Assembly (NCBI GenBank): GCA_025617745.1
Contig: CM046863.1
Location: forward strand, 14,574,875-14,638,874
Source: Heliocidaris erythrogramma
Lineage: Eukaryota; Echinodermata; Echinoidea; Camarodonta; Echinometridae
DNA: 64,000 bases
Direction of reading: 5' to 3'
In this document: positions 47,239-64,000 of the stretch, piece by piece
Numbering within the stretch: the stretch's first letter is position 1
Layout of the letters: each line of letters begins with the position of its first letter
Program-made: the position numbers and the translations under genes
The notes under the pieces: model-generated
Seen by the model: the letters and a program-made list of their open reading frames with translations, nothing else
The model's database searches: none
Told to the model about the DNA's origin: nothing

Positions 47239-47289
47239 AGTCATTTCAATCTAGCCTTCAAGTGAAGAACATCAAACTATATAAGAGTC

Positions 47290-48114
47290 ATGGCGGAGCC
47301 CCGTGTTAGATACAGGCGCACTAGTAACGAGGATAGGGGTAGGCTAATCAAAGCCTTCGAAGCCCCGAGAGACTACGTGCAGTTAGCAGTTACCCTATGC
47401 ATTAATCGCAACACTGCTAGGTCTATCATTGTGACCTATCTGAGGGAGGTGAGACGCAACAAGCTACCGAGGGGTGGGGAAAAGAATACCAAAATGGACG
47501 ACGAAATGAAGGCAAGACTTGAACATTTGATCGATACAAATCCTCTAATGACACTACAACAGATGAAGGATGAGCTGGCTGAATCTCTCCCAGATAAACC
47601 CGCCGTGAGCACATCAACCATTGCCAGGGCGCTAGATGGCATGCTCATAACACTCAAGTTGGTGGAGGACTTCCCAGATGCTCGAAATGTTCCCGTGTCT
47701 TGGACCAACGAGATGAGTATGCGGATTGGTTCCTGCAGATTGGCAATCTTGCCCACTGCGTCTTCGTGGATGAATGTGGATATAACATCTGGACCCGAGA
47801 ATCGCAGGGGAGAGCTCCACGTGGAGAACCAGCAAGGAGGGTAGTTCATGGCCAACGCGGACTGCAACTTTACTTTTGCAGTCTCCAATGCAGTCGGCTT
47901 GCTGCACCATACCATGTCCTGTGATACCGTCACAAGGGAGAGCTTTGAAGCGTTTCTCCTGGAGGCGGCACGCCAGTGTAACCAATTCTTTCCTCCTGAC
48001 ACGGATGTCTTCATCATCTATGACAACGCCCGCCCACATGTAAGAGCGGAACTGCCAGAACATGCCGATGGAGTCCACCCGAGAATTCACCTCAAGACAC
48101 TCCCACCATATTAA
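47290..48114 (+). pseudogene. IS630/Tc1-superfamily transposase, frameshifted and truncated
   Basis: Frame 1 gives the N-terminal helix-turn-helix region (RTSNEDRGRLIKAFEAPRDY, INRNTARSIIVTYLREVRRN) and a second HTH-like part ending STIARALDGMLITLKLVEDF. A frameshift near 47690 leads to DEYADWFLQIGNLAHCVFVD, ECGYNIWTRESQGRAPRGEP (first catalytic Asp in FVDECG). A second shift near 47850 leads to VSNAVGLLHHT and FIIYDNARPHVRAELPEH (second Asp). LKTLPPY is reached just before the third catalytic residue, then a stop at 48112. The C-terminus, with the expected NPIE-like motif, is gone, replaced by an unrelated repeat. Not functional. Confidence 0.82.
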
Positions 48115-48118
48115 CAAT

Positions 48119-48255
48119 TTTCTTCCTCTGTGTTACAACGTCAGAAAGTACATTTCTTTTCTTTATCTACCTCAGGGTATAACAAGTACTGAAAAAATAA
48201 CAAACGATGACAAAAGATTGAACATGGTTGGTCAGAGCTGAGCAATGATTATTAG
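48119..48255. repeat. Direct repeat, copy 1 (137 bp)
   Basis: Matches 48755-48891 with about two to three differences (for example GGGTATAACA versus GGGTAAAACA). It cuts off the transposase C-terminus. Confidence 0.92.
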
Positions 48256-49254
48256 CTCACTGTTTAATAGATTTAGTAAGTTACGATAATTGCAAAAAGA
48301 TACATTAGAAAAAACTCGGTCAAGGAAAACAGCTTGACAACGTAAAGCGTTACTATTTCACCAAAATGCATTCAATAATCAATTGAATAACAAAGTATGA
48401 ATAGAAAGAATGCAAGGCGCTCAGTACCTGATGACTAGTGTACGAGACACTAGTACACGGAGGCACGAAAAACCCCCATATTAGTTCATGGAGGAAACGT
48501 TGTTGCGTCCAAGGATACTGAGCGAGGGCGCACTCCCTTGCTCCTTGCTCCTAAATACTAAAAATAGAGGTTTAACGGGGGGGGGGGGGGGGGGGGGACC
48601 TTGGGGAACCAAAAGAGGAGGGGGGGGGGGGGGGGAAGTCGAGCTAATAATGCTCAACCGAGAATGAATAAAGAATGCATAAAGAATGCGTGTTAGCGCA
48701 ACAAGGAATCTCGAAAATCGCAGTTATGTAACGAACACCAAAAATAAATTTCACTTTCTTCCTCTGTGTTACAACGTCAGAAAGTACATTTCTTTTCTTT
48801 ATCTACCTCAGGGTAAAACAAGTACTGAAAAAATAACAAACGATGACAAAAGATTGAACATGGTTGGTCAGAACTGAGCAATGATTATTAGTCATCGAGA
48901 AACGCAAAAGAAGGCATTAGTGATTACAGATAAAGTAAACCATTACCAGTTACTTAAATTGGGTATTAAAACCAAAACGCAATTACAACGTAAGCAGAGC
49001 TGCTCATCCCATCCTGGTATCGAAACGTGCGCGAGCTAATAGCGCAACAAGAAATCTCGAAAATCGCAGTTACGTAACGAACACACAAGGAAACACCTTG
49101 CGGTCGATACCGAAAAGAAATTCCACTTCTCAATCCCACGGAGATGGCACACAGCGCCTTCAAAGCTGCTGTCAAACGAGACCTCGCACGTCCACGATGG
49201 CAGCGGAGGTTCGGCGACCGTATGGCAAGTCATATTACTATTTAAAGTGATTTT
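48256..49254. other. Unassigned region with G runs and direct repeats
   Basis: Holds an 8-bp-stem hairpin (ACTAGTGT/ACACTAGT, near 48434-48454), G runs at about 48580-48597 and 48620-48636, and a second direct-repeat pair: GCGCAACAAGGAATCTCGAA (48693 on) against GCGCAACAAGAAATCTCGAA (49041 on), each followed by ATCGCAGTTAnGTAACGAACAC. This suggests two copies of a longer repeat, unidentified. Confidence 0.5.
48755..48891. repeat. Direct repeat, copy 2 (137 bp)
   Basis: See the copy at 48119-48255; offset 636 bp. Confidence 0.92.
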
Positions 49255-49512
49255 GTGATATCACGAATTCGAATTTGTGATATCACGAATTGAATTTTTG
49301 ATATCACAAATTCCCATTGGTTTAGCACATAAACCCAATTTTTGATATCAAGAAATCGAATTTGTGATATCACAAATTCCCATTGGTTTAGCACATAAAC
49401 CCAATTTTTGATATCACGAATTGAATTTGTGATATCACGAATTCCATTTTGTGATATCACAAAGTCAATTCGTGATATTACGAATTTGAATTTGTGATAT
49501 CACGAATTGAAT
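49255..49512. repeat. Palindromic minisatellite, GTGATATCAC core
   Basis: About a dozen units of TTTGTGATATCACGAATTGA, period about 22 bp. In the middle a longer unit of about 80 bp, containing CCCATTGGTTTAGCACATAA, is repeated twice. The 10-bp core is a perfect palindrome in most units. Related but longer palindromes follow: GGCAACATATCA/TGATATGTTGTC near 49744-49780 and a similar pair near 49910-49950. Confidence 0.92.
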
Positions 49513-50107
49513 TTGTTGTGCAAAAAATCACTTTGATTTCGAGCATTAGTTTTGTGCAGAAATTCAGCTTGGTATTCGAGCGTTAGTTTAGTGCTCGAAT
49601 TCACTTGGTATTCGAGATTTATAGTTTAGTGCAGAATGTAGTTTAAGTTTGAATAAAAATAGCAACAGAGTTCTCGCATCCATATCCTTCACTGGAAACG
49701 ATTTTAAAATAATTTCAGATGAATTGATACATGTAAATTGATTGGCAACATATCAAGAATTCAATTAATGATATGTTGTCAATTTAAATGAAACCCGCAA
49801 TGCTGTTCCATATATTTTCGAGTTTGCATTGTTTAATGTATATATAATTGTTTTTATTAAAAAACGCAAGTAAATAGTCTCCAAATCAACTTATTTTTAC
49901 GTAGATTGGCAACTTATCAGTAATTCATTTCGTGATATGTTGTCAAATTGTAGTTAGTCGGATTGGAGTACCGAGCAGGCATAGCCACGTGGCCGCGCGG
50001 CCCGGTCGGTCGCGCGCCGTCGTCGCGTAGATTACGTTGCTGCTGGATATGTTTATAACTGAGTGTGAATTTTACACCTGTGCTTTGCCAGGGACTAGTA
50101 CCTTGCC
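49513..50107 (+). promoter_or_regulatory. Upstream region of integrase-like gene with CpG-rich pocket
   Basis: Mostly AT-rich, with repeats of TTCGAGnnTTAGTTTnGTGC (49540-49630). 49983-50030 is very CpG-rich (GCCACGTGGCCGCGCGGCCC, then CGCGCGCCGTCGTCGCG) in otherwise AT-rich DNA, about 80-125 bp before the ATG. It could be a promoter/transcription start region; no TATA box or other proof. Confidence 0.35.
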
Positions 50108-50504
50108 ATGGATAATGACGTGATACCTGACAGCGTGCTCTCCAGAATTAGTAGAACACTGAGAGATGTAGAAAGACATGAAATGGCAAGGGAAAAGTTG
50201 AACTCAGTTAATGTAAACATTCACCGAGTATCAGGTGGTCTGGCTGCTGAAGTGTATGCAATTCTTATAGACTGTGTCCAAAAATTGTTGGACTTGTGCA
50301 AAGAAGAGGACGAGCATGATGAGGCTAGTACCGGTACTCAAATGGACCAGAACTTCCAACGATTTGAAATCGAAGAAGAAGAAGACAACTCTGCACATCA
50401 CGAAAGAAGACCGGCCAGAGGCAGAGGCAGAGCTAACGACATTACATCCGACTCCGAGCCTTCCACTTCCAACGTTAGTTTTAGTGCCCCAAGAATAAAA
50501 TCAG
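50108..50504 (+). CDS. Integrase-like gene, exon 1
   Basis: Starts MDNDVIPDSVLSRISRTLRD at the first ATG after the CpG-rich pocket. Ends in phase 1 at AAATCAG followed by donor GTACAG (50505). Mostly charged, with an EEEEDN stretch and Ser-rich end; no known domain. The open frame would continue to 50566, but exon 2 joins perfectly here. Confidence 0.7.
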
Positions 50505-50579
50505 GTACAGACAGTATTCATAATAGTTTTTGTGAATTGTTTATGCTCATCTTTAATTTCAAGTAGAAAATTAGGGTAC

Positions 50580-50790
50580 TTAATCAGAAGGGTTCCTATT
50601 CATAATTATTATAATATAAATACGAAAAGAGGGTTGCTGTTTATAAAGGTTAATATTCAGAAGGGTCGCCAGTCATAAAGATGGTCGCTTGTCATAATCA
50701 AGAAGGAAATGGTCACTATTCATAATCGAAGAAGAGGGTTCTTTACTCATTATCAAAGAAGAGGTTCGCTATTCACAATTGAAGAGGAGA
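50580..50790. repeat. Degenerate 25-30-bp tandem repeat in intron 1
   Basis: Six to eight units of the form GGTCGCTATTCATAATCnAAG with AAGAGG spacers. The rest of intron 1 (50791-51252) is AT-rich with no feature. Confidence 0.7.
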
Positions 50791-51252
50791 ACATGTTACA
50801 TACATAGCCCCTCTCTGTTTGCAAAAAATCTTAACAGACACCAAGTAATCATTTGGGCAGGGTGCGGCAATAATATTCTACAATTACTAAATTTGAGAAA
50901 GCCTTATTAACATTATCAAGCTTGTCTCTTAATCTTATCCATTATGCAGTAGTGTATGGAATTTCGTAATAAGAGATTTTTATTATTAATATTGTATTAT
51001 TTACAAGATCCTTATCGTTTTGTCTTAGAAGTAGCCAATGTAATATGCCACTTTTGTTTTCTTTATTCATTCCTGTAATGACGAGCTGTCATTGATACGA
51101 TTTCTCAATATACATGTCTGCGTCACAATGTCATAGTCATCAACCCCCAAGCCAATGTCAATCCACAATCCTAAGCCAAAAGGATAAAAGTGTTGTCAAT
51201 GAATAATGTTGACCGCCCCTAATCCCTTGTGACATTTCTTTAAATTCTGCAG

Positions 51253-51488
51253 GCATGCGAGGGCGTCCCAAAGTGCACATTACCAGGGAGCAACTTTTAA
51301 CCCTTCACAAAAGTGGTTACACTGCTCGAAGGATGGCTGCACATTTTCAGTGCTCTACGTGTCTTGTCTACAAGAGGATGTATGAGGAGAATATCAGAAT
51401 TAGGGACAAGTACTCCAATATAACTGATGAAGATTTGAAAGTTGTCATCGGTGATCTTCAAAAACACTTTCCGAGCAGTGGTGTTGAG
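51253..51488 (+). CDS. Integrase-like gene, exon 2 (helix-turn-helix)
   Basis: Acceptor TTCTGCAG at 51245-51252; donor GTGATT at 51489. Encodes GMRGRPKVHITREQLLTLHK, then SGYTARRMAAHFQCSTCLVY, a helix-turn-helix, and a second helical part ending FPSSGVE. Phase 1 in, phase 0 out. Confidence 0.78.
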
Positions 51489-51735
51489 GTGATTTTTTTC
51501 TTTTGCTTTGTCCTGTATGGTGTAGACAAACACGAATTTAGTCCCGTTGGTATGCATGCAAAATAGTAGATTTTGTATTTTACTATGCTAGTTGAAACTG
51601 GAAAGCATTTAGTCTCAAGTCACCTGCAAATTTCAACTCAAAAGCTACAAATGTGATATAAAAACATTAACAAAAAACAGATAAAAAAAGATGTCATCGT
51701 CCACTTCATAATCATACCCATTTTTTCCCCCTTGG

Positions 51736-51920
51736 ATGATGTATGGCCTTTTACAATCTCGTGGTCTCACTTTGCAAAGAAGTAGAGTACGGAAATGTCT
51801 GTCTGAAGTAAATCCGTCTGCAGCAGCTGAACGATGTGGAAATTCTGTTTCACGGAGAGTGTATAAAGTTGGTTCACCAAACAGCCTTTGGCATATGGAT
51901 GGACACATGAAACTCAGCAG
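51736..51920 (+). CDS. Integrase-like gene, exon 3 (first catalytic Asp)
   Basis: Encodes MMYGLLQSRGLTLQRSRVRK, CLSEVNPSAA, VYKVGSPNSLWHMDGHMKLS. The donor GTATAC follows CAGCAG at 51921. A pyrimidine tract precedes the exon, but bases 51734-51735 are GG where an AG acceptor would keep the frame. This points to a one-base mutation, or to an error in my exon start. Confidence 0.65.
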
Positions 51921-52754
51921 GTATACATGTAGTAGCTGTTCTTCATTGTATTATTTATTCTTATCAAACTAGTCATTTAATAACCTTTGGTTGACATATC
52001 ATTCAGTCAACTCAAGGAGGTTTGAACACATAGAGTCACAACAAAAAGAAAAATTAATTCAGTCTGTTCCACCAGACCTGACTGGAGGGGGCAGAACAAT
52101 AGGTGAAGCTGTGGGGAGGCCTTCATAACCTTGAGATGACTTTGAGCTTCATCATAGTGAACGGGCCACCGGTCTGATAAAGAATTTTTTTTTTAAATTT
52201 AAAATGATTACTTGCATTTTTATAGCAAGTGCCACTGATCCTACGTTGTATGAAAAAAAGATGGCATTTATTTTTTTTTCTGATTCTGCTCTTTTCGTCA
52301 AAACATTTTTTGTAAATGTGGGTTTAATTCCATATCTTCCAATGACCAATCTCTATACTCTATCCATGCCGATCATTAAGAAACCTCAATGCAATGACTA
52401 CTGTAGGATAACTGCCAAAAAACTGATTAGATGTGTGGGACATGATGCCAAAGGTCACAAGCCAATGACTAATATTTTATAGAGCGTAAGAGCGATATCT
52501 CAAAAACCTGTAAGTTAACTTCTACATGGATGTTCCTTACGTATTTATTGCATTCATAGGTCATAGCATTATCATTAGGATTTAGGAATATATAGTGGAC
52601 TTCAACACCCAACTTAAAAGACGTTAACTCTACAAGTTCCGTGTTTTTTAAAGTTTTGGTATTGCCATTATGGAACACTGAAACAAATCAAAAACAGAAA
52701 ATATGATGTCTTATCAAAGGTACTGTTTATGTCCATATTTTTAACAGATATTCC
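51921..52754. other. Intron 3 of integrase-like gene, 5' part
   Basis: AT-rich; no recognisable feature. Small ORFs here (52204-52482, 52469-52678) show no motif. Confidence 0.55.
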
Positions 52755-55652
52755 CAAAATTGTTTATTGCATTCAAGACCCCCGAAATCCAATTTGGATC
52801 GATATATGACGTATTTTGATAAATTGTTGCAGGAACTTTGTAAAGAAAATAAACAAATATATATTCTTGGAGACTATAATATCGATCTATTAAAAATGAA
52901 TTCAAACAGGATTACTAATCTTATGAATATTATTGCATCACACGGTTTTTACATTCAAATTAAATATACCAACCCGTATAACCAAATCCACAGCTTCCAT
53001 TATAGACAATATATTGACGAATGACTGCAACGATATTACATCTGGTGTGTTATATTCTTCAATCACTGATCACATGCCAATTTTCTGTTACAAGAAAGGT
53101 TTCTATAAAAATGATTCAGATCAAACGTATACTTCCAGGAAAATCAATGACTTAACGATCAATAGATTTTTTATTGAACTGCGTGATGTTGATTGGAGTG
53201 ACGTATTTTTGTGTATGGATGCTGATATAGCTTATACATTGTTTATGAATATTTTCCTAAAATTATACGATAAACATTTTCCTTTGATATCAATAAAAAA
53301 GAGAAGAAAAAATAAGAAACCGTGGGTCACTAATAGAATGTTGAGATTGATTAGAAAAAAGAATAAATTGTTTAAAGTTTTTTGTTTAAGTCGACATAAA
53401 AGTGATGAGAGAAAATTTTAAAAAGTTCGAAATAGAGTTATTAATGCTCTTCGTAAAGCTCGTCAAGAATATTATAAAAACGTGTTACAATCGAATCGGA
53501 GTAGTATACGAAAAACCTGGAAAACAATTAACGAATTATTGGGCAAAAAGAAAACTCAAATTCCTACAACTTTTGAATGTAATGGAAAATTATTTATTGA
53601 ACCCATGGAAATAGCAAATCAATTTAATGATTATTTTATAAACATTGAAAAATCTGTTAGTGACTCAGTACCGCAATCTATTCATTCTTCTCATTTTTAT
53701 TGCCAAACAAGTGTTGTGAATTAATCAATGTAAGTAAACAGCTTAGAAGTAATGCAAGTTGTGGAATCGATAGTGTAAGTTGCAAAGTCGTTAAGCATAT
53801 TATTCATGCCATTGTCTTGCCGTTAGTTCACGTATTTAATCTTTCATTTATATCTGGTAAAGTACCCTTGAAACTTTTAAGAAAGACGACCCCGGAAAAT
53901 TTGTAAACTATAGACCCATCTCCCTACTACCATGTTTTTCTAAATTACTAGAGCGACTTGTGTATAACCGATTATATAAATTTTTAAATTACAACAATAT
54001 TTTAAGTGACACTCAATATGGATTTAGACCTAACTATTCATGTGAACATGTTCTTTTGAAAGTCCAACAAAAAATATTGGAATCATTTCAAGCTAACGAA
54101 GATATAATAGGGGTTTTCTTAGACTTGTCGAAGGCATTTGATTCTATAGATCACTCAATTCTTTTTTTAAAACTTTATCAATATGGAATAAGAGGGGTTG
54201 CATCGGATTGGTTTAGGGATTATCTTTCAAACAGAATTCAACATACTTTTGTTCACAGTACATTATCTTCTTCTTTAAATGTCTCTATCGGGGTACCTCA
54301 AGGATCAATTCTGGGTCCCTTGCTATTTCGTTTATACATAAATGACCTTTCTAAATCATCTAGTTTCTTAACTTTCTATCAATTTGCTGACGACACTAGT
54401 GTATTTTTTTCGTCTAAAAATTTGATTAATACTGTCCATGTTTTAAATAATGAAGTTGAGAATATATGTGACTGGTTAAAAGCAAATTAGCTATCACTGA
54501 ATGTTAATAAAAGTAAATGTATTTATTTTCGAAAAACAAAATCTCATATAATATCAAACATAACTAACACCAGTGGTCCCTTAATTAATACTGATAATAT
54601 TCCCATAAATATTGATAATAAACTTATTCCATTCAGTAACTCTGTTAACTTTTTGGGTGTCACATTGGATGATTTCTTAGGATTAAAAGACCATATCATA
54701 AATATAGGATTTGAAGGTTTGCATGGTGAAGTTGTAATTCAGGAAAAAGGTTTGCGGTACAACCATGTGAGTTGGAATATATGTTTTACACAAGATCAGT
54801 AGAAATACTGGTTTGATAAATAAGTTGAAATATAGTTTGTTACCAGAAAATTTAATAACATTATATCATTTCCTTATTTGAAATACTGTAATATTGTATG
54901 GGCTACAAATGCAACTCAAACTGAATTAGACACATTATTTAAAGTAAAAAAAAAATGCTAAAGAATAATTACTAATTCTGACTATTTAGAGCCATCTGCA
55001 CCTATTTTTAAGAAATTATCATTATTGAATACATCTGATATAAATAAGCAAGAAATTGCAAAGTTCATGTATAAATAAAAAATAGGTTATTACCTACCCC
55101 CTTTTTAGACATCTTTCAATATAATAGTCAAGTTCATAATTATAATACTAGATCGTCAAACAAATTTCATTTATGGTCCATTAAATCAAGTCATGAAGCT
55201 AAGTCAATGAGTTACATAGGTCCTAAACATTGGAATATTATTCCCCATGACATAACAAAAACAAAATTTGTATCTTCCTTTAGGAAACAATATAAAACAT
55301 TATAAGTAAATAATTATTAATCACACAGTTAATTTTGATGTTATATTCGAATTCCCTTATATTTTGTTCTGTTCTTCTCCCCCCCCCCTTTTTTTTTGTT
55401 TGTTTTAATTCCTGTATTCTGTTTTCTGTTGTTACAATTTAGATGTTTGTGTGTGTTTAGGTTCATATTGTTTTTATGCCTAAAATAATTTGGTTCTGTT
55501 TTTTTTTATTGTCTAATGGGCGATCCAAATTCTACAGGTTTCCTAACCTTCATGGAAAGCCCCGCATAATTTTGTATATGTATTTGAATCTATTGTTACC
55601 ATGTATATTGATTTTATCTTGCGAAATAAAATAGAATTGAATTGAATTTTTG
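52755..55652 (+). mobile_element. LINE-E, 5'-truncated APE-type retrotransposon in intron 3
   Basis: Begins within the endonuclease and ends AATAAAATAGAATTGAATTG. The protein is most like LINE-A (FADDTSVFF, GVPQGSILGPLLF, KTWKTINELLGKK) but clearly another lineage. Same orientation as the host gene. Confidence 0.88.
52767..55310 (+). pseudogene. LINE-E ORF2 remnants
   Basis: Endonuclease end: RPPKSNLDRYMTYFDKLLQE, YILGDYNIDLLKMNSNR, then in a second frame PTRITKSTASIIDNILTN and SITDHMPIFCYKK (52933-53421). Linker: KKPWVTNRMLRLIRKKN, then KTWKTINELLGKKKTQIPTT. Reverse transcriptase: SNASCGIDSVSCKVV, FRPNYSCEHVLLKVQQKILE, VFLDLSKAFDSIDHSILFLK, GVPQGSILGPLLFRLYINDL, FADD at 54383-54394; in-frame TAG at 54488. 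The C-terminal region is recognisable to about 55300 (NFLGVTLDDF, IGPKHWNIIP-like) with several further shifts. Dead. Confidence 0.87.
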
Positions 55653-55788
55653 GCAAAATCTCACTCCTAACCTTCATGGAAAGCCCCGCATAATTTTGTA
55701 TATGTATTTGAATCTATTGTTACCATGTATATTGATTTTATCTTGCGAAATAAAATAGAATTGAATTGAATTTTTGGCAAAATCTCAC
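55541..55788. repeat. Tandem duplication of LINE-E 3' tail, 124-bp period
   Basis: 55541-55664 and 55665-55788 look identical. Each includes the last 100 bp of LINE-E and about 20 bp of flank (TTTTTGGCAAAATCTCACTC). A duplication that spans the element end must postdate insertion. Confidence 0.93.
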
Positions 55789-55862
55789 TCCAATCTACCA
55801 CAGATTTATCATAGTTGATTTTTTTTTCTTTTTGTTTTATTCAATCACATGCACATCTGCAG

Positions 55863-56388
55863 ATGGGGCTTCGTTACTAATGGATGCATTGATGGCTACT
55901 CTAGACTCGTAACTTTCATCCATTGTTCAACGAGCAACAACGCAAAGACAGTATTGAACCTCTTTCTTGAGGCAACAAAAACCTACTCCATGCCGTCACG
56001 TCTCAGGTCTCACCACGGCAATGAAAACTTCCTTGTAGCCCTATTTATGAACTTGACATTCGGGACCAACAGAGGAAGCCACATCACAGGGAAGTCAGTG
56101 CACAACGTCACAATTGAGAGGTTGTGGAGAGATGTCTTCAAAGATGTTATTGAAGTATTTTACAAGGAATTCTACGAACTTGAGGATGAGGGAGTTTTGG
56201 ACCCGAGCGATGATATCCATAGGTACAGTCTGCATAAGGTCTATTTAGAGACCATTAATCAGCGCCTCTCAACATTTGAGCATGCATGGAACAATCATCG
56301 AGTCCGTACTGAAGGCAACCGAACCCCGGAGCAGATTTGGCGTGATGGTATGTTAGAATGCAGCCTAGAGAACTCTGCAGTTGGCTGA
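55863..56388 (+). CDS. Integrase-like gene, exon 4 (core and C-terminus)
   Basis: Acceptor CATCTGCAG at 55854-55862. The first base completes an Arg codon with exon 3, giving KLSR-WGFVTNGCIDGYSRL with no gap. Continues through RLRSHHGNEN, GRSVHN-type KSVHNVTIERLWRDV, an EDEGVLDPSDDIHRYSLHKV region and HRVRTEGNRTPEQIWRDGML, the expected C-terminal pattern. TGA at 56386-56388. Confidence 0.8.
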
Positions 56389-57815
56389 TTGTTTGATGAA
56401 GAGTCATGGGAGGACAAAATCGAGGAGATGTTGAGGAGGCACAACTTGACCTGGTACTGATGATGAAAGATAATTAGTTGAAGAGACGAACAATGTCGGT
56501 TCAAGATTGTCACAGATTCAGAGGGATGAGCTTCCCTTTCATATCCTGGCAGGGGAAGATGTGTTGAAGGAAAAAATTTGTCAACATTCCAGGAAGGTTG
56601 ATGAGTGTTTGTGGTCATAAAGGCAGTAGATTTGCATTGAAATGCGTTGAGCTGTTTTATTGTGAAGGGTACCACTGAAGGTGTGAAATGTAGATAACAT
56701 TTGCTGGCCATGGTTACCTACATGTACATATTATGTACTAAAAGACAATCTACAGTATGTATTAATATTCACTGGCACAGACGGACGAGATAGAAATGAC
56801 TTGTCAGTAGTCTTTTGTCTTTTCTATCTAAGCAAACTGACACTGAAGATTGACAATTTCTTTTGACTGCAATTTTGGTCAAGTAAATTGACTTCCCTGT
56901 CATATACATAGAATTTAAAATCAAGCTGTAACATTTGCTGTAGGTCAAAAAACTTTTTGTCACGGACGGACATTAAAACTGCATGTGCTCCTATCTAAAA
57001 TCAAACATACTACTTTATTCTTTTTTGTTGGAAAGTGATTTTATTTCAATAAAAGCAAAACTTAGCTTGAAAATATGTAAAACTACATGTATATGGGCAT
57101 TAAATGCTTAAGACCAAACTGAACAGCATTTGAGTAGTAAGCTTTCAAAATATAGCCCTTTAGGTGGATCTAAATCAAACATCAGTATTTAGTATTTCAA
57201 TTTACTTTACAGCTCAAGGTCATATGTCTTGTTTCAAAAATAGAGGTAATATAGGAGTAGGATTGACTATCATTACCATATAAAGTAAAATTTCTAAATT
57301 GGTTTTAAATTGCAGTTTACCAATACTCTTTATAACATCTCATATTTTTCAATAGTTCTACATGTATTTAAGAGAGTGAAAACCAAATCATGACATGCAG
57401 AGCATAGTCCAACTCTTTCTCATACAATTTAAATATTGATTCAGTGTTAATGTTGAATCTGAGACTTTTACATGTTCCTGATGACCTAAAACATCAGTTT
57501 GAATAATAACAATGATAATGAATAAGTAAGAAAATAAGTATTCAACTTCTTTAAACACCTGTAATGGATGTCCTTTGGAGACTGATACTGCATGTTGGCG
57601 CCCATGAGAGTCATAAGCAAAGCCATTAGGGTTTTAGGGCTTAAACAAATATATATATACCAGTATTCAAAAACTTGGGGGGGGGGGGGGAGTTTAGCAT
57701 TCATACTGGGGGACCACAATATCATATATTTGATATATGGGATGAAATACATTCCATGAACCAAGAAACGGTAAAACCATTCACTGGATTTGAAATCTCT
57801 TGGCATTTACCAAGA
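56389..57815. other. Downstream of integrase-like gene; candidate poly(A) signal
   Basis: AT-rich, no further coding. AATAAA at 57048-57053 is the first clear poly(A) signal I found after the stop. A G run is at about 57678-57691. ORFs at 56295-56711 and 57486-57806 (minus) have no motif. Confidence 0.5.
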
Positions 57816-58106
57816 GGTGTCGTGGTCTGGTGGATACGTCACCGGACTGTGGCTCACATGGTTCGCGGTTCGAATCCCGCCACGGCGCTAATGTCCTTTG
57901 GCAAGACATTCATCTACATTTGCCACTCTCCACCCAGGTGAAGTAAATGGGTACCCGGTAGGAAGACATTCCTTGAAATGCTTTAGCGCCTATCATGGCA
58001 GCTCGGCTAAAGCCGGGGTAATAATGTGATACTTTGTATTAAGCGCAGTAGAGTATATTCATATAGTAGCTGCGCTATATAAATGGAACATATTATTATA
58101 TTATTA
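57816..58106 (+). mobile_element. Full-length tRNA-derived SINE
   Basis: The head is tRNA-like: box A-like TGGTCTGGTGG (about 57823-57833) and a perfect box B GGTTCGAATCC (57867-57877), so an internal RNA polymerase III promoter. The body has GGGTACCCGGTAGGAAGACA, CCTTGAAATGCTTTAGCGCC, GGCTAAAGCCGGGGTAATAA and TTAAGCGCAG; the tail is TTATTATATTATTA. SINEs carry no protein and depend on a LINE. The 40.7 kb fragment is the same family. I could not fix a target duplication. Confidence 0.88.
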
Positions 58107-59144
58107 CCGTTTCAGCGTATTGCACTGTCTGTCCATGATATAATTAGTGCCCATCCACGACAGTTTTGAAATGTGTTATATTTGATTTATGAAGGTTACA
58201 TGCATACATGGTATATGTTCTCAATTTTGCCCACCATTAGATAATTAACTTTAAAAAAAAAATTATGTCCCGCACGTACAAATTTGCATCAAGATGTGAA
58301 TGGCCATGCACCACGACCATTTCTGTAGAAATATTTGAAATTATTTTGAGGGGTTTTAATGGAATGGTGTTTGATCTATAATTATATGCCAACAAAACTT
58401 ATAAAAGTTTAAATAGTGTTAACTATCTCTGTAAAGCCTTAATTGCTACTATTTTAACTGATGTGGAATGGCAGTAAGAAGGTAAGAATTATATTAATGC
58501 AGAAAAATTAGTGTTACATCATTTTTGTTCTAAAGGTAAAGGGAGTAATGATTATGATTCAAATCACTCATCGAAACATCTTGGTCAAGGAATTAGCAAC
58601 AAATTTGCCACCACATTCCCCAGCCAGCAGACTTGATCTAAAACTTTCAACAACATCAACAAAAATACATGTAAATAAAAAAGGATATCACAGTCAGTAA
58701 AGGCCGGGCCAATTTATAAGAAATTTATCTCGAGTGTGTTTCCAATGCTACGGTCACAGATGATTCTACTTCTCTACTATTTAGTAAATCATTAAATTCC
58801 CCTGAGACTTTTCAAAACGAACTGCATTTGAATGAAGATTTCTCAAATTTTACAAAATATCATGAATAAATTTAATTTGGCTGCTAAAGACCTACAGGCG
58901 TATACTAGCGTTACACCTGGAGTAGAGCCCGATTGGTTAAGAGTGAGGATTGGGGTGCAAATTTTATCTTTAGATTTATATGATGAAATCACTTTCGGAT
59001 TTTTCATTAATTTCTTAAAGTTACTAAAATTTATGTTTGTTAACTTGACATTGTACAAAAAAGTCATAGGATTGGCGCATTTTTTAACGGGTGTTGAGCA
59101 CTAATGTCACACATGGACATTTTCTAGAAGGATTGATTTGATCC
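58107..59144. other. AT-rich DNA, nothing recognised
   Basis: No element boundary seen. The short ORF 58832-59104 (90 codons) and its antisense have no recognisable motif. Confidence 0.5.
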
Positions 59145-59360
59145 TACACTCTAAAAAGTGAAGTGCTGAAAAACGAGTGCTAATTGGAAGTTTGCACTTG
59201 ACATGCTATTTCTAACACCTCACGTGTCATTTGCGTCTGGGAGATGATAAGGTGCAGAAAATTGAGTGCTAAAAGTAAGTGCTGAATGTTAGGACGCTCG
59301 TTTTACACTTCAAGTCCTGACCAACGTCCCGTGATAGCACCTGCACAATTCTGTGCTAAT

Positions 59361-59930
59361 AATTAGGATTTGCGCATGAGCAGATAAAGGTCATTTGACA
59401 TAAACTGGCATGTTCGTTTAAAATTCACTGCGATAAGAATCGACAGTGTAATGATTATTAATATATTCATTTAATTATACTTTTCATTAAATCCACTGAA
59501 AAGCAACAAAGTGTTCATTGATGGTTGGTATTTGACAGTCTGCCAAATGATAGCCAACTTGCAAACAATGGGCTTTCCCCAAGTGTTCATTGACGTGCTA
59601 TTCTAGTCACCTGGTCTACGATGTCTTTCTTTCATAAAGTTTTGCTATTAATTAGGATTTGTGCATGAGCAGATAAAGGTCATTTGACATAAACTGGCAT
59701 GTTCGTTTAAAATTCACTGCGATAAGAATCGACAGTGTAATTATTATTAATATATTAATTTAATTATACTTTTCATTAAATCCACTGAAAAGCAACAGAG
59801 TGTTCATTGATGGTTGGTATTTGACAGTCTGCCAAATGATAGCCAACTTGCAAACAATGCGCTTTCCCCAAGTGTTCATTGACGTGCTATTCTAGTCACC
59901 TGGTCTACGATGTCTTTCTTTCATAGATTT
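59361..59930. repeat. Tandem duplication, 289-bp period, two copies
   Basis: 59361-59649 and 59650 to about 59930 share almost every base, starting AATTAGGATTTGnGCATGAG. Differences noted include GATTATTAATATATTCAT versus TATTATTAATATATTAAT and GGGCTTT versus GCGCTTT. Confidence 0.93.
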
Positions 59931-60261
59931 TGAATTCTGTAGGTTGCTATGTCGGGCAAGCTTACGAATTATCTTTCTTTGAAAAGATGCCTATCCAAAC
60001 GAAAAAAGGGAAAGGTCATTTGCGAAAAGTTGCTCATGGGCCAATTACGAAATCGCTTATTACGCAACTGTAGTGCAAGAGCCATCATCTGCTGCACAGG
60101 CATGGCGTGGTAAGTAAAAATTGAAGACATTAAATTTAGAACTTCTGTAATTTTATGCGAATAAAGGTATCAAATAATATGATATTTACATTAATTTTTG
60201 TGGTGGTGGATATGAAACATGATGAAAAGCAATGAAGTGGAAATGCCATGTTTCAGCATGT

Positions 60262-60269
60262 GTGGTGTG
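60262..60269. repeat. Target duplication, left (GTGGTGTG)
   Basis: Exact match to 61070-61077 at the other tip of the foldback element. Confidence 0.88.
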
Positions 60270-61069
60270 TAGCCAGGATTAGCTTCGTGAATGTAGAAAA
60301 AAAAAATGGCTATACGCCTTCTACACACGAAGCTAGGCGTTATTACCCAGCAATCAGATTCCGCACGGGGTAGTACGACATGAAAAATGCCCTGAAATCA
60401 CACTTTTCTGATAGTTTCCGCGACCCACAGACCCTTCCCCACAGCGTTTCCTCCTAGGGAAACGTTTGTAATGACAATTTTTTTTTGATTGACTCTAATT
60501 TTGGAAATATATCCATAAAAAGATGATAAAAATTTCAGAAAACTCACCAGCGTTTGCGTATCCATGCCTCCGAGGTCATGCAGATCAAAATGGCGGCACG
60601 ATCGCCGTAATCGAAATCATGAAAACTATTAGGCGCCGTTTGTAAATTTATTATTTAGCTCAATTATTTACATATAATTCACTATTTAGCTCTTTTCTAC
60701 GATTATTATACGATAAAATGACATAAAGGATACAATGTTTTATAAATAATGAATTTTGCAATTTCCATTTTTTTTAAATAATGATTTTACAATATTCATC
60801 ATATATAAATAATGGAAACTGCAAAATTCATTATTTATATATGATGAATATTGTAAAATCATTATTTTATAAAAAATGGAAATTGCAAAAAACGCTGTGG
60901 GGAAGGGTCTGTGGGTCGCGGAAACTATCAGAAAAGTGTGATTTCAGGGCATTTTTCATGTCGTACTACCCCGTGCGGAATCTGATTGCTGGGTAATAAC
61001 GCCTAGCTTCGTGTGTAGAAGGCGTATAGCCATTTTTTTTTTCTACATTCACGAAGCTAATCCTGGCTA
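60270..61069. mobile_element. Foldback element, 800 bp, perfectly matching 180-bp arms
   Basis: Arms 60270-60449 and 60890-61069 are, as far as I can read, 100% identical inverted copies starting TAGCCAGGATTAGCTTCGTG. Within each arm a smaller hairpin exists (AGCTTCGTGAATGTAGAA against TTCTACACACGAAGCT). A second inverted pair lies inside (about 60755-60813 and 60827-60887) around a 13-base centre. Flanked by the 8-bp direct repeat GTGGTGTG, as for hAT-type elements. The unpaired part (60450-60750) includes AAAATGGCGGC, a YY1-like site. No ORF of note. Confidence 0.92.
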
Positions 61070-61077
61070 GTGGTGTG
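61070..61077. repeat. Target duplication, right (GTGGTGTG)
   Basis: Exact match to 60262-60269. Confidence 0.88.
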
Positions 61078-61600
61078 GCCAAACGTCTACGGTACGCGCT
61101 GTCGTTGACATGAAAATTGTTGATCATGCGGGGTCAGCCAGGCATGGGGCGCGATCGACCGCGCCGGCCGGGGCCGGGAAGTTTCGAAGGCGGTGTGTGT
61201 GCTTTCTTTTTCGTTACGATTGTGGATTGCCGAAATGGAACAATTAATTGCCACGTAAATCCACATGCCATGGTTTTAGTCCACATCATCATGTATACAA
61301 CCAGTTCATATCAATTAATCTAAAAATAAAATCTAGACCTTATAGTGTAGGGCTGTTTAACAGACTATAGAAGGGTGAGTTTTCAGCACTATACAGGTGT
61401 GATTTTGTGCATACTGTTTGTGTATGTTCTTTAGTACTATATTGGGTGCGAAAGTGTTAGCACTAGTAGTGCCGTTTTGGGGGCTCTAAAATGGGTTATT
61501 TAAATCACTAGAAGTGTAGTTTATGCAGCTGCATGCGTCTAATAGCACCAGAAGTGCAAAAAGGCTTACACTTAAAGTGTTTAAAGTAGCACTTGGACTG

Positions 61601-61914
61601 GTGTTGACTTATAACACTTGTACAAGGGCTACTTTAGCACAATTTGTGCAGTCCCTATGCGTGCCCTTACAGGTGCTCCTTCCTAATCTTGAGGTGCTAA
61701 AAATAGCACTTGAGTTTTTAGAGTGGACATGTAGTTTAAAAGGAGAATGAAACCCTGGTGTTGACTTATAACACTTGTACAAGGGCTACTTTAGCACAAT
61801 TTGTGCAGTCCCTATGCGTGCCCTTACAGGTGCTGCCTCCAAATCTTGAGGTGCTAAAAATAGCACTTGAGTTTTTAGAGTGGACATGTAGTTTAAAGGA
61901 GAATGAAACCCTGG
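61601..61914. repeat. Tandem duplication, 157-bp period, two copies
   Basis: 61601-61757 and 61758-61914 are almost identical. Both include the right end of the 59145 candidate element and the first 17 bases of the TTAA element that follows (AGGAGAATGAAACCCTG). Confidence 0.93.
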
Positions 61915-62524
61915 TGAAAAATCAACTTTAATGAAAAGAGAGGATAGAGGGAAGCTATTCCAAAAACAGTTATCAAAACCTGTTAAAAAAAGAAATTTAT
62001 GAGAAAATTATCAATTTACTTCCTAAGGTGATCCTCAAATTGGCAATGTTGCTCCAAAGTGGCAGGCTGAGTAGTACAACTCTCCATATGTTTTATACAC
62101 ATTTTTTTTTTCATATTTTCTCCATTATCTCTACAAGTGCTGCTTGTTTCTTTGTGAAGTTAGCATATATTGTGTCAAATACATTTTCCCATGGTATATC
62201 TTGAGCTAAGGAGACAAGCTGCACCTTGAGAGATTATGGGGAAAATATGAAATTTTGTGTGCCAAACAAATGGAGAGTTGTACTACTCCACCAGCCACAT
62301 CGAAGCAACACTGCCATTTTGAGGTTCACCAAAGAAAATAAATTGAGACTTTTCAAACTTTCTCATTACATAACCCGATTTTAATTAATAATAATAATAA
62401 TCCCACCTTTTATACTGTGCCTTTTCCATTGTGGACCAAAGCACTTTACAGAATTTTTTTTTATTGCTTCCGTTCCCTATTTTCATTAAAATTGATTCTT
62501 CCCCAGGGTTTCATTCTCCTTTAA
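61893..62524. mobile_element. TTAA-flanked palindromic MITE
   Basis: Element 61897-62520 is flanked by TTAA on both sides (61893-61896, 62521-62524), the target of piggyBac- and Kolobok-type transposases. Termini match as inverted repeats (AGGAGAATGAAACCCTGG), and the pairing goes on inside: 62028-62133 against 62230-62332 share GAGTAGTACAACTCTCCAT and CATATTTTC blocks. The right arm contains a SINE tail not present in the left. No ORF. Confidence 0.88.
62386..62455 (-). mobile_element. SINE 3'-end fragment nested in MITE
   Basis: Reverse complement reads CTGTAAAGTGCTTTGGTCCA and on to GGGATTATTATTATTATTAA, the AAGTGC...(ATT)n pattern of SINE tails. It accounts for the length difference between the two arms of the MITE. 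Family not proven to be that at 57.8 kb. Confidence 0.5.
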
Positions 62525-63059
62525 TTTAAAAACAGGAATGACCCATTAATTTAAGCAAATTGGTACTTTCATTAGGGGTAAAAAAAAATGCATTTTTTCC
62601 TTGTCAACATGATGCCTAATGATCATAAACTACCAATTTGGGGAAAAAATGTCTAAGGAATAATTACTGGTTTAACTCAGTGTTAACCAATTAAGCTACG
62701 TGGGTGTGATAGTGTGACAGTATGTTTTGATGAAATTTTATTTTGCAGTATTTGGAGTTCCATTAACAGTTTTCACTTTGCAAACCCACCAAAATCCTTC
62801 CATGAGGTTGTATATTTCCTTGCGTATATGATGCAACAGGTAAATCAATAGTTACCGGTAAATTATTTAGTTCACACTAAATAATTATCAAATATGAAGT
62901 TTGCAATGTGATAATGAATTGTAGAGTGTAGGAAAATTTTGTCAAATTAATGCACTATGTGACTTGCATCATGTCAATACATGTACAACAAAATGTATTC
63001 TAAGTAGTCACAAAGGATTCATCTTTCTTACTGGAACATTTCCTGTAATGACATAGAAA
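62525..63059. other. AT-rich gap
   Basis: No gene or repeat recognised. Confidence 0.55.
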
Positions 63060-63650
63060 TTGTGACATCTGGGAATATTATTGATGTTGGATTCAGTGAC
63101 TATTCATTGAGTCATGTTCCCTTGAAAGTATGCTGTTTTAATAATCTGAAAAATAATGCTGTTACTACAGTACTTATAGGAGTAGAGATTTGGATGCAAG
63201 TGCATTCAAAGAACACACAAGATTTCGAAAATTGGTCAAAGCTTTAAGAATGCAATAATATAAAACTGTTGGTACATCTGAAGTATTGGTTATGGATGCT
63301 GTAAATGTGCATATACCATTACAGAAACAAAAGAATAGGAAGAACTCTCCATGGCATAATTAATCAATATTTACTTTAATGAAAGAGCATGACAAAATGT
63401 TTAAAGTAGGGCTAAAACTTTGTAAGTTAGATGAAGATTGGAAAGAATAAAGATTACAAAGTATATAAGAAATTGAGAAATAAAATGACATAGGCTAAAA
63501 AGACTTATTGCAAAATAATTTAAAAGTGTGTAGGTCGATCTGACACATGGAGTGTTCTCAAATCTCTTCTACCACAGAAATTTAAATGCCGATTTGAGTA
63601 AAAATGATGATACATGTACTGTGTTGATGGATTGTGATATAAAACCAGTT
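63060..63650 (+). pseudogene. LINE ORF2 relic (endonuclease end and linker)
   Basis: Plus-strand pieces: SDYSLSHVPL (63082 on; compare SDH.L at the end of LINE endonucleases), then in other frames KNSPWHN, EDWKE...YKVYKKLRNKMT...AKKTY, and THGVFSNLF.H at about 63546. The order fits the linker between endonuclease and reverse transcriptase (compare PWFxxE...LRNKVTxxIRKAKKxYY). Very decayed. Confidence 0.5.
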
Positions 63651-64000
63651 TGGAAAAAAGAAAACATGTTTTTATTGTTTTAAATGTTATTTAAAATGTG
63701 TTTTTGTTTTTGGTTTTGTTTTTTTGTTTTTTGCTTTTTGGTCAACAAAATCGCGTATATATTTAGTTATGGTAAAGAACCTATAATAAGCCTTTTATGT
63801 TATAAATAGACCTCTTACCATGTTTAGGAAATATTTTTAGCTGAAGATTAAAAAAAACTACAATTAATATAATTTTCAAAAACATAAAATGAATAATTTG
63901 CCACTAAAAATACAGTTCAGGAAAAAGATTTACTTATAAAAACAATCTTGTATGTTTTTAATCATAATATCATAAGCAAATTGTTACATTTTCCCAAGGA
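63651..64000. other. AT-rich end of window
   Basis: Poly(T)-rich stretch near 63700-63740, otherwise unremarkable. Confidence 0.6.

Follow-up and report, generated by a model that had tools for sequence, protein, structure and literature searches.

A spliced integrase-fold gene of the sea urchin Heliocidaris erythrogramma most probably belongs to a large, dead copy of an IS3EU-type DNA transposon

IS3EU transposons are characterized by TA..TA termini, in fungal members TAYGG..CCRTA, and by 6-bp target site duplications (TSDs), as described in the accessible portions of PMC10045372 and PMC12730594. Cargo genes are known from fungal members, including an alpha-kinase gene placed opposite to the transposase, according to the available text of PMC12730594. 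Moreover, a copy of Styx with a non-functional integrase has been moved, as stated in the accessible part of PMC10853768. Here, we analysed a window of 64,000 nucleotides of Heliocidaris erythrogramma (contig CM046863.1, positions 14,574,875 to 14,638,874) that harbors an intron-split integrase-fold gene. We conclude with high confidence that a dead copy of a cut-and-paste DNA transposon, of large size and IS3EU type, occupies this locus. The termini and the duplication fit this superfamily; the putative assignment draws on these two features and on the fold family rather than on a tree.

The initial annotation had proposed four exons in one frame, with GT donors and a GG acceptor at exon 3. 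Indeed, joining 50108-50504, 51253-51488, 51736-51920 and 55863-56388 yields 1344 nt in a single frame. All three donors are GT (CAG/gtacag, GAG/gtgatt and CAG/gtatac), and the acceptors read ctgcag for exons 2 and 4 and ccttgg for exon 3. The GG at 51734-51735 is likewise real in the sequence, with AG at this site in the sister copies, the paralog comparison the annotation had called for. As long as the exon 2 donor is left unchanged, no alternative AG in 51489-51920 yields an in-frame, stop-free exon 3. The exons of the gene as originally bounded stand, its end at the TGA at 56386 does not, this being a premature stop within a longer frame. The unit to consider, rather than the exons alone, is an element of 27 kb that starts at 49221. 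The closest relatives of this copy are two copies on other chromosomes of the same genome, C6 and C14, and the features are as follows.

49215 to 49220, no strand: left flank of 6 bp, adjoining the left end at 49221
49221 to 64000, plus strand: window-contained part of the transposon with terminal inverted repeats (TIRs); TATGG left end common to the three copies
49221 to 49946, plus strand: left TIR, delimited by its pairing with the opposite end of this copy; GTGATATCAC palindromes in the outer part
50108 to 50504, plus strand: exon 1, 132 codons and one base; indels relative to the sister copy are multiples of three
51253 to 51488, plus strand: exon 2, with weak helix-turn-helix matches, all under curated cut-offs
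51734 to 51735, plus strand: faulty acceptor GG, where the sister copies have AG
51736 to 51920, plus strand: exon 3, first catalytic Asp within WHMDG
52778 to 55771 (approximate), plus strand: LINE insertion, itself broken, sense to the transposase and absent from C6 and C14
55863 to 56385, plus strand: exon 4, rva_4 core as far as the premature stop
56011 to 56013, plus strand: His codon where relatives have the second catalytic Asp
56386 to 56388, plus strand: premature TGA, an Arg codon in the sister copy, with a one-base insertion further on

The element measures 27,243 bp, is bounded by TIRs and encloses the transposase gene. Its termini read TATGGCAAG ... CTTGCCATA; the left end at 49221 recurs inverted 27.2 kb away (inverted match at 821-2465 of locus L040), with the right end at C11:14651337, the would-be window position 76463, 12.5 kb beyond the window and 20 kb past the transposase gene. 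CGACCG is present on both flanks, a perfect 6-bp target duplication. TA..TA termini, a 6-bp duplication and, as for fungal members, TIRs longer than 30 bp, all features of IS3EU elements, are found here. A right end closer to the gene was also considered (48000-50107 against 56389-59500); the single 19/24 site recovered was rejected, one in ten shuffles being as good. The outer TIR, at 49244-49534, is filled by tandem palindromic repeats with a GTGATATCAC core. Immediately left of the element, at 47266-48114, lies a transposase-like gene, itself broken, that matches HTH_32 and DDE_3 at scores slightly under the curated cut-offs.

Profile searches assign the gene to the integrase fold, as anticipated. 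Exon 4 matches Pfam PF24764 rva_4 with an E-value of 9.4e-75 (251 bits) and exon 3 with 5.5e-07 (29.9 bits), both above the curated cut-off of 26 bits, and the exon arrangement is therefore not due to chance. The triad, assigned by motif and Pfam (a structure prediction of exon 4 alone reached pLDDT 39), is Asp-His-Glu in the window copy, departing from the Asp-Asp-Glu of DDE transposases that is found in C6 and C14. The loss of the second catalytic Asp, with the first Asp and the Glu kept, had been noticed from the sequence and is borne out: codon 56011-56013 is CAC (His), and among 21 rva_4 cores, 20 have Asp at this site and the window copy alone has His, with Glu retained in all 21. These cores include the window copy and represent the 20 best plus one of at least 116 matches, comprising 12 distinct sequences. 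The at least 116 matches were obtained in the source genome of 1.06 Gb with 150 of 273 candidates scored. A PDB sequence search with exon 4 returned nothing up to an E-value of 10, viral contigs searched with six exon 4 peptides gave no match, and Rfam (gathering thresholds) and tRNA scans of the window yielded no hits.

We then turn to the sister copies. Homology of C6 and C14 to the window begins at TATGG (49221), the C14 end being TATGGGCAAG, and the three left flanks differ, with CGTACG in C6 and CGGACG in C14. C6 and C14 are 99.4% identical across 18.1 kb, with a second block of 5.2 kb at 97.8%, and their transposases are identical, unbroken proteins of 539 aa with the catalytic Asp and the AG acceptor. 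No right end was found for either copy in the stretches examined, each of which contains a 500-N gap; the two copies may therefore have arisen by transposition or by a segmental duplication starting at the left end of the element.

Measured against C14, the window copy has GG for the AG acceptor, His for Asp and TGA for Arg, followed by a one-base insertion. Relative to the C6 and C14 proteins, the TGA is thus a premature stop with a frameshift after it, while exons 1 and 2 are free of both kinds of lesion. Divergence from C14 amounts to about 2-3% of exon sites and 4-6% of intron sites. Indels in exon 1 come in multiples of three; no indel occurs in exons 2 and 3 or in exon 4 up to the stop, as against 3 to 19 in the introns. 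Across 447 codons, dN/dS is 0.33 (dN 0.020, dS 0.062), based on 21 nonsynonymous versus 17 synonymous changes, and a test against equal rates gives a one-sided p of 0.001. The paralog comparison advised in the initial annotation thus gives a ratio that is not neutral, and the C6 and C14 paralogs lack stops. Judged from these alignments, the transposase gene was evidently under coding constraint before it decayed.

The split structure had been regarded as unusual for a transposase. The core donor, AG/GT after WHxDGxxxLx, recurs at an unchanged codon position in L024, L025, L026 and L027, four loci that belong to other subfamilies, and splicing is therefore, as far as these alignments tell, inherited and not peculiar to the window copy. 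In these loci, the aligned parts flanking the donor show 34 to 46% identity to the C14 transposase (67% for one L025 piece of 18 residues), and the following aligned piece restarts at or near the same residue, in a comparison of the proteins and of the donor DNA. L023, L028, L029, L030 and L031 are uninterrupted through the donor point, with no intron.

The terminus pattern has 420 matches in the genome as compared to 48 for the reversed pattern (up to 3 mismatches). Among 100 listed terminus places, 19 convergent end pairs were hand-picked, with at least three further such pairs in the same list, and 15 of the 19 have exact 6-bp TSDs, two of these sharing CGATCA and perhaps reflecting one duplicated insertion. 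The other four have 2, 3, 3 and 1 mismatches; the C8 pair overlaps two further ends and is perhaps mispaired. With the window copy included, C occupies position 5 in 16 of 16 TSDs and position 1 in 13, and G occupies positions 2 and 6 in 12 each. CG ends 12 of the 16 and begins 10, and six have the full CGNNCG. CG-rich sites are therefore preferred, CGNNCG being a leaning and not a rule. No complete element (TANGG..CCNTA, similar ends, exact 6-bp TSD) was detected in ten loci of 7-9 kb from other rva_4 subfamilies. Two of these other subfamilies have identical cores in seven (L005-L011) and three (L015-L017) copies on several chromosomes, and hence also look recently active. Separately, an rva_4 frame of 417-421 aa (L031, L032) is present at eleven places with near-equal score, and the homology of two such copies spans most of the 7 kb examined, with ends beyond view.

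Further coding capacity is present in the form of a HECT-like frame, opposite in orientation to the transposase. In C14 it matches PF00632 with an E-value of 5.3e-10 (39.9 bits, cut-off 23.9), the best stretch covering profile positions 214-305 of 306, and its HTC, which would hold the candidate catalytic Cys, aligns with the HTC of TOM1, within a 3.3-bit stretch. The frame is also present in C6 and in the window copy, in the latter past the end of the window, between both TIRs, and broken by a stop and frame changes. Window against C14, dN/dS is 0.43 over 304 codons (p 0.015), a set from which stop codons and the unaligned start were dropped. Leaving out ten misaligned codons at the frame change, an exclusion decided after viewing the alignment, the ratio is 0.21 over 294 codons (p 0.0004). 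C6 against C14 gives 0.47 on 8 changes, too few to judge. Past coding constraint on the HECT gene is indicated by the aligned codons. Inspection by eye of some ORFs from L039 and from the C14 copy's right half revealed no upstream HECT exons; of these ORFs, the HECT frame and one LINE-like frame were run against Pfam. None of the other rva_4 loci examined, all short stretches of 3.5 to 9 kb, showed HECT. In full-text searches of the literature, no paper combining HECT with transposon terms was found, and the terms HECT and ubiquitin are absent from the available text of PMC12730594.

Intron 3 had been noted to tolerate a sense-oriented LINE, and a reverse transcriptase in this orientation is indeed recovered there (RVT_1, E 7e-31), within a LINE of 3 kb. 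At its 3' end (55541-55791), a 127-bp exact self-match with 124-bp spacing indicates either tandem duplication in the very recent past or an effect of the assembly.

From the start, two fates were considered for the gene, a dying copy of a spliced transposon or a host-owned gene that lost catalysis and kept DNA binding. The former has been substantiated by the TIRs, the 6-bp TSD and unbroken relatives on two other chromosomes. Domestication appears highly improbable. Congruent with it are the dN/dS of 0.33 and the in-frame indels of exon 1, which speak for past coding constraint, and the retained first Asp and Glu. This constraint was however measured against transposon sister copies, and the gene, still located between TIRs with a TSD, carries the stop, the frameshift, the bad acceptor, the lost Asp and a 3-kb LINE without counterpart in the sisters. 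An open frame free of transposon ends, as expected of a domesticated gene, is not what the window copy displays. TIRs, TSD and unbroken sister transposases, together with the stop and frameshift of the window copy, therefore argue for a dead copy rather than a host-owned gene.

It is also very doubtful that the locus serves as a non-catalytic repressor derived from the transposon. In that reading, exons 1 and 2, read on into intron 2, would give a truncated DNA-binding protein competing for the ends. Beyond exon 2, the frame does continue for 25 open codons within intron 2 (ORF 51213-51566), and exons 1 and 2 have neither stop nor frameshift, but plain decay gives the same arrangement, and a similar read-through is seen in the C14 copy (ORF L022 3775-4131). 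Least likely of all, to a degree that we consider negligible, is that the copy is unbroken and that the GG acceptor, the His codon and the stop stem from assembly or sequencing errors. All three differ from the sister copies by small base changes, yet with divergence from C14 of about 2-3% in exons and 4-6% in introns substitutions are expected, and the frameshift and the LINE stand as further lesions independent of them.

Within the favored reading, that of a dead transposon copy, anatomy and family knowledge suggest how working copies may operate. An N-terminal helix-turn-helix region would let the spliced 539-aa protein bind to the long terminal repeats, the Asp-Asp-Glu core would excise the element, and insertion at a CG-rich, CGNNCG-like site would duplicate 6 bp. 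The window copy inserted at CGACCG, gained the LINE in intron 3 and, as the comparison shows, is broken by the bad acceptor, the lost Asp, the stop and the frameshift. Going further, we tentatively propose, at somewhat less than even confidence, an animal IS3EU lineage of giant elements with cargo, spreading as units of at least 18 kb, preferring CG-rich CGNNCG-like targets and carrying a HECT ubiquitin ligase that is kept by purifying selection and possibly acts on host silencing or repair factors.

Aggregated, an odd broken gene becomes a bounded mobile element with relatives of unbroken transposase, in a family with near-identical copies that has kept a splicing-dependent transposase. With the HECT-like cargo and the leaning to CG-rich targets, an IS3EU-type lineage gains features that are concrete and open to test, and repression by a truncated protein is a testable idea.

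Among known systems, the prokaryotic IS481 family is echoed by weak, colinear matches of exons 3 and 4 to the NCBIfam model NF033577 (E 0.0018 and 0.0026), which however attain only 17.8 and 17.3 bits against a curated cut-off of 224; the window element further differs by its spliced gene and long TIRs. Styx, the IS3EU-derived element of Zymoseptoria, shares the 6-bp TSD and an IS3EU-like transposase with further coding sequences, but is fungal, with new insertions of about 7.9 kb, and none of four TSDs given for it (ATCGAG, CGTGAT, TGTGAT and CATAAG) fits CGNNCG, according to the accessible portions of PMC10853768. Compared to IS3EU as presented in the available text of PMC12730594, the window element differs by its length of 27 kb, four-exon transposase, HECT-like cargo and CG-rich targets, and it shares the termini, the 6-bp TSD and an IS481/IS3-like DDE transposase.
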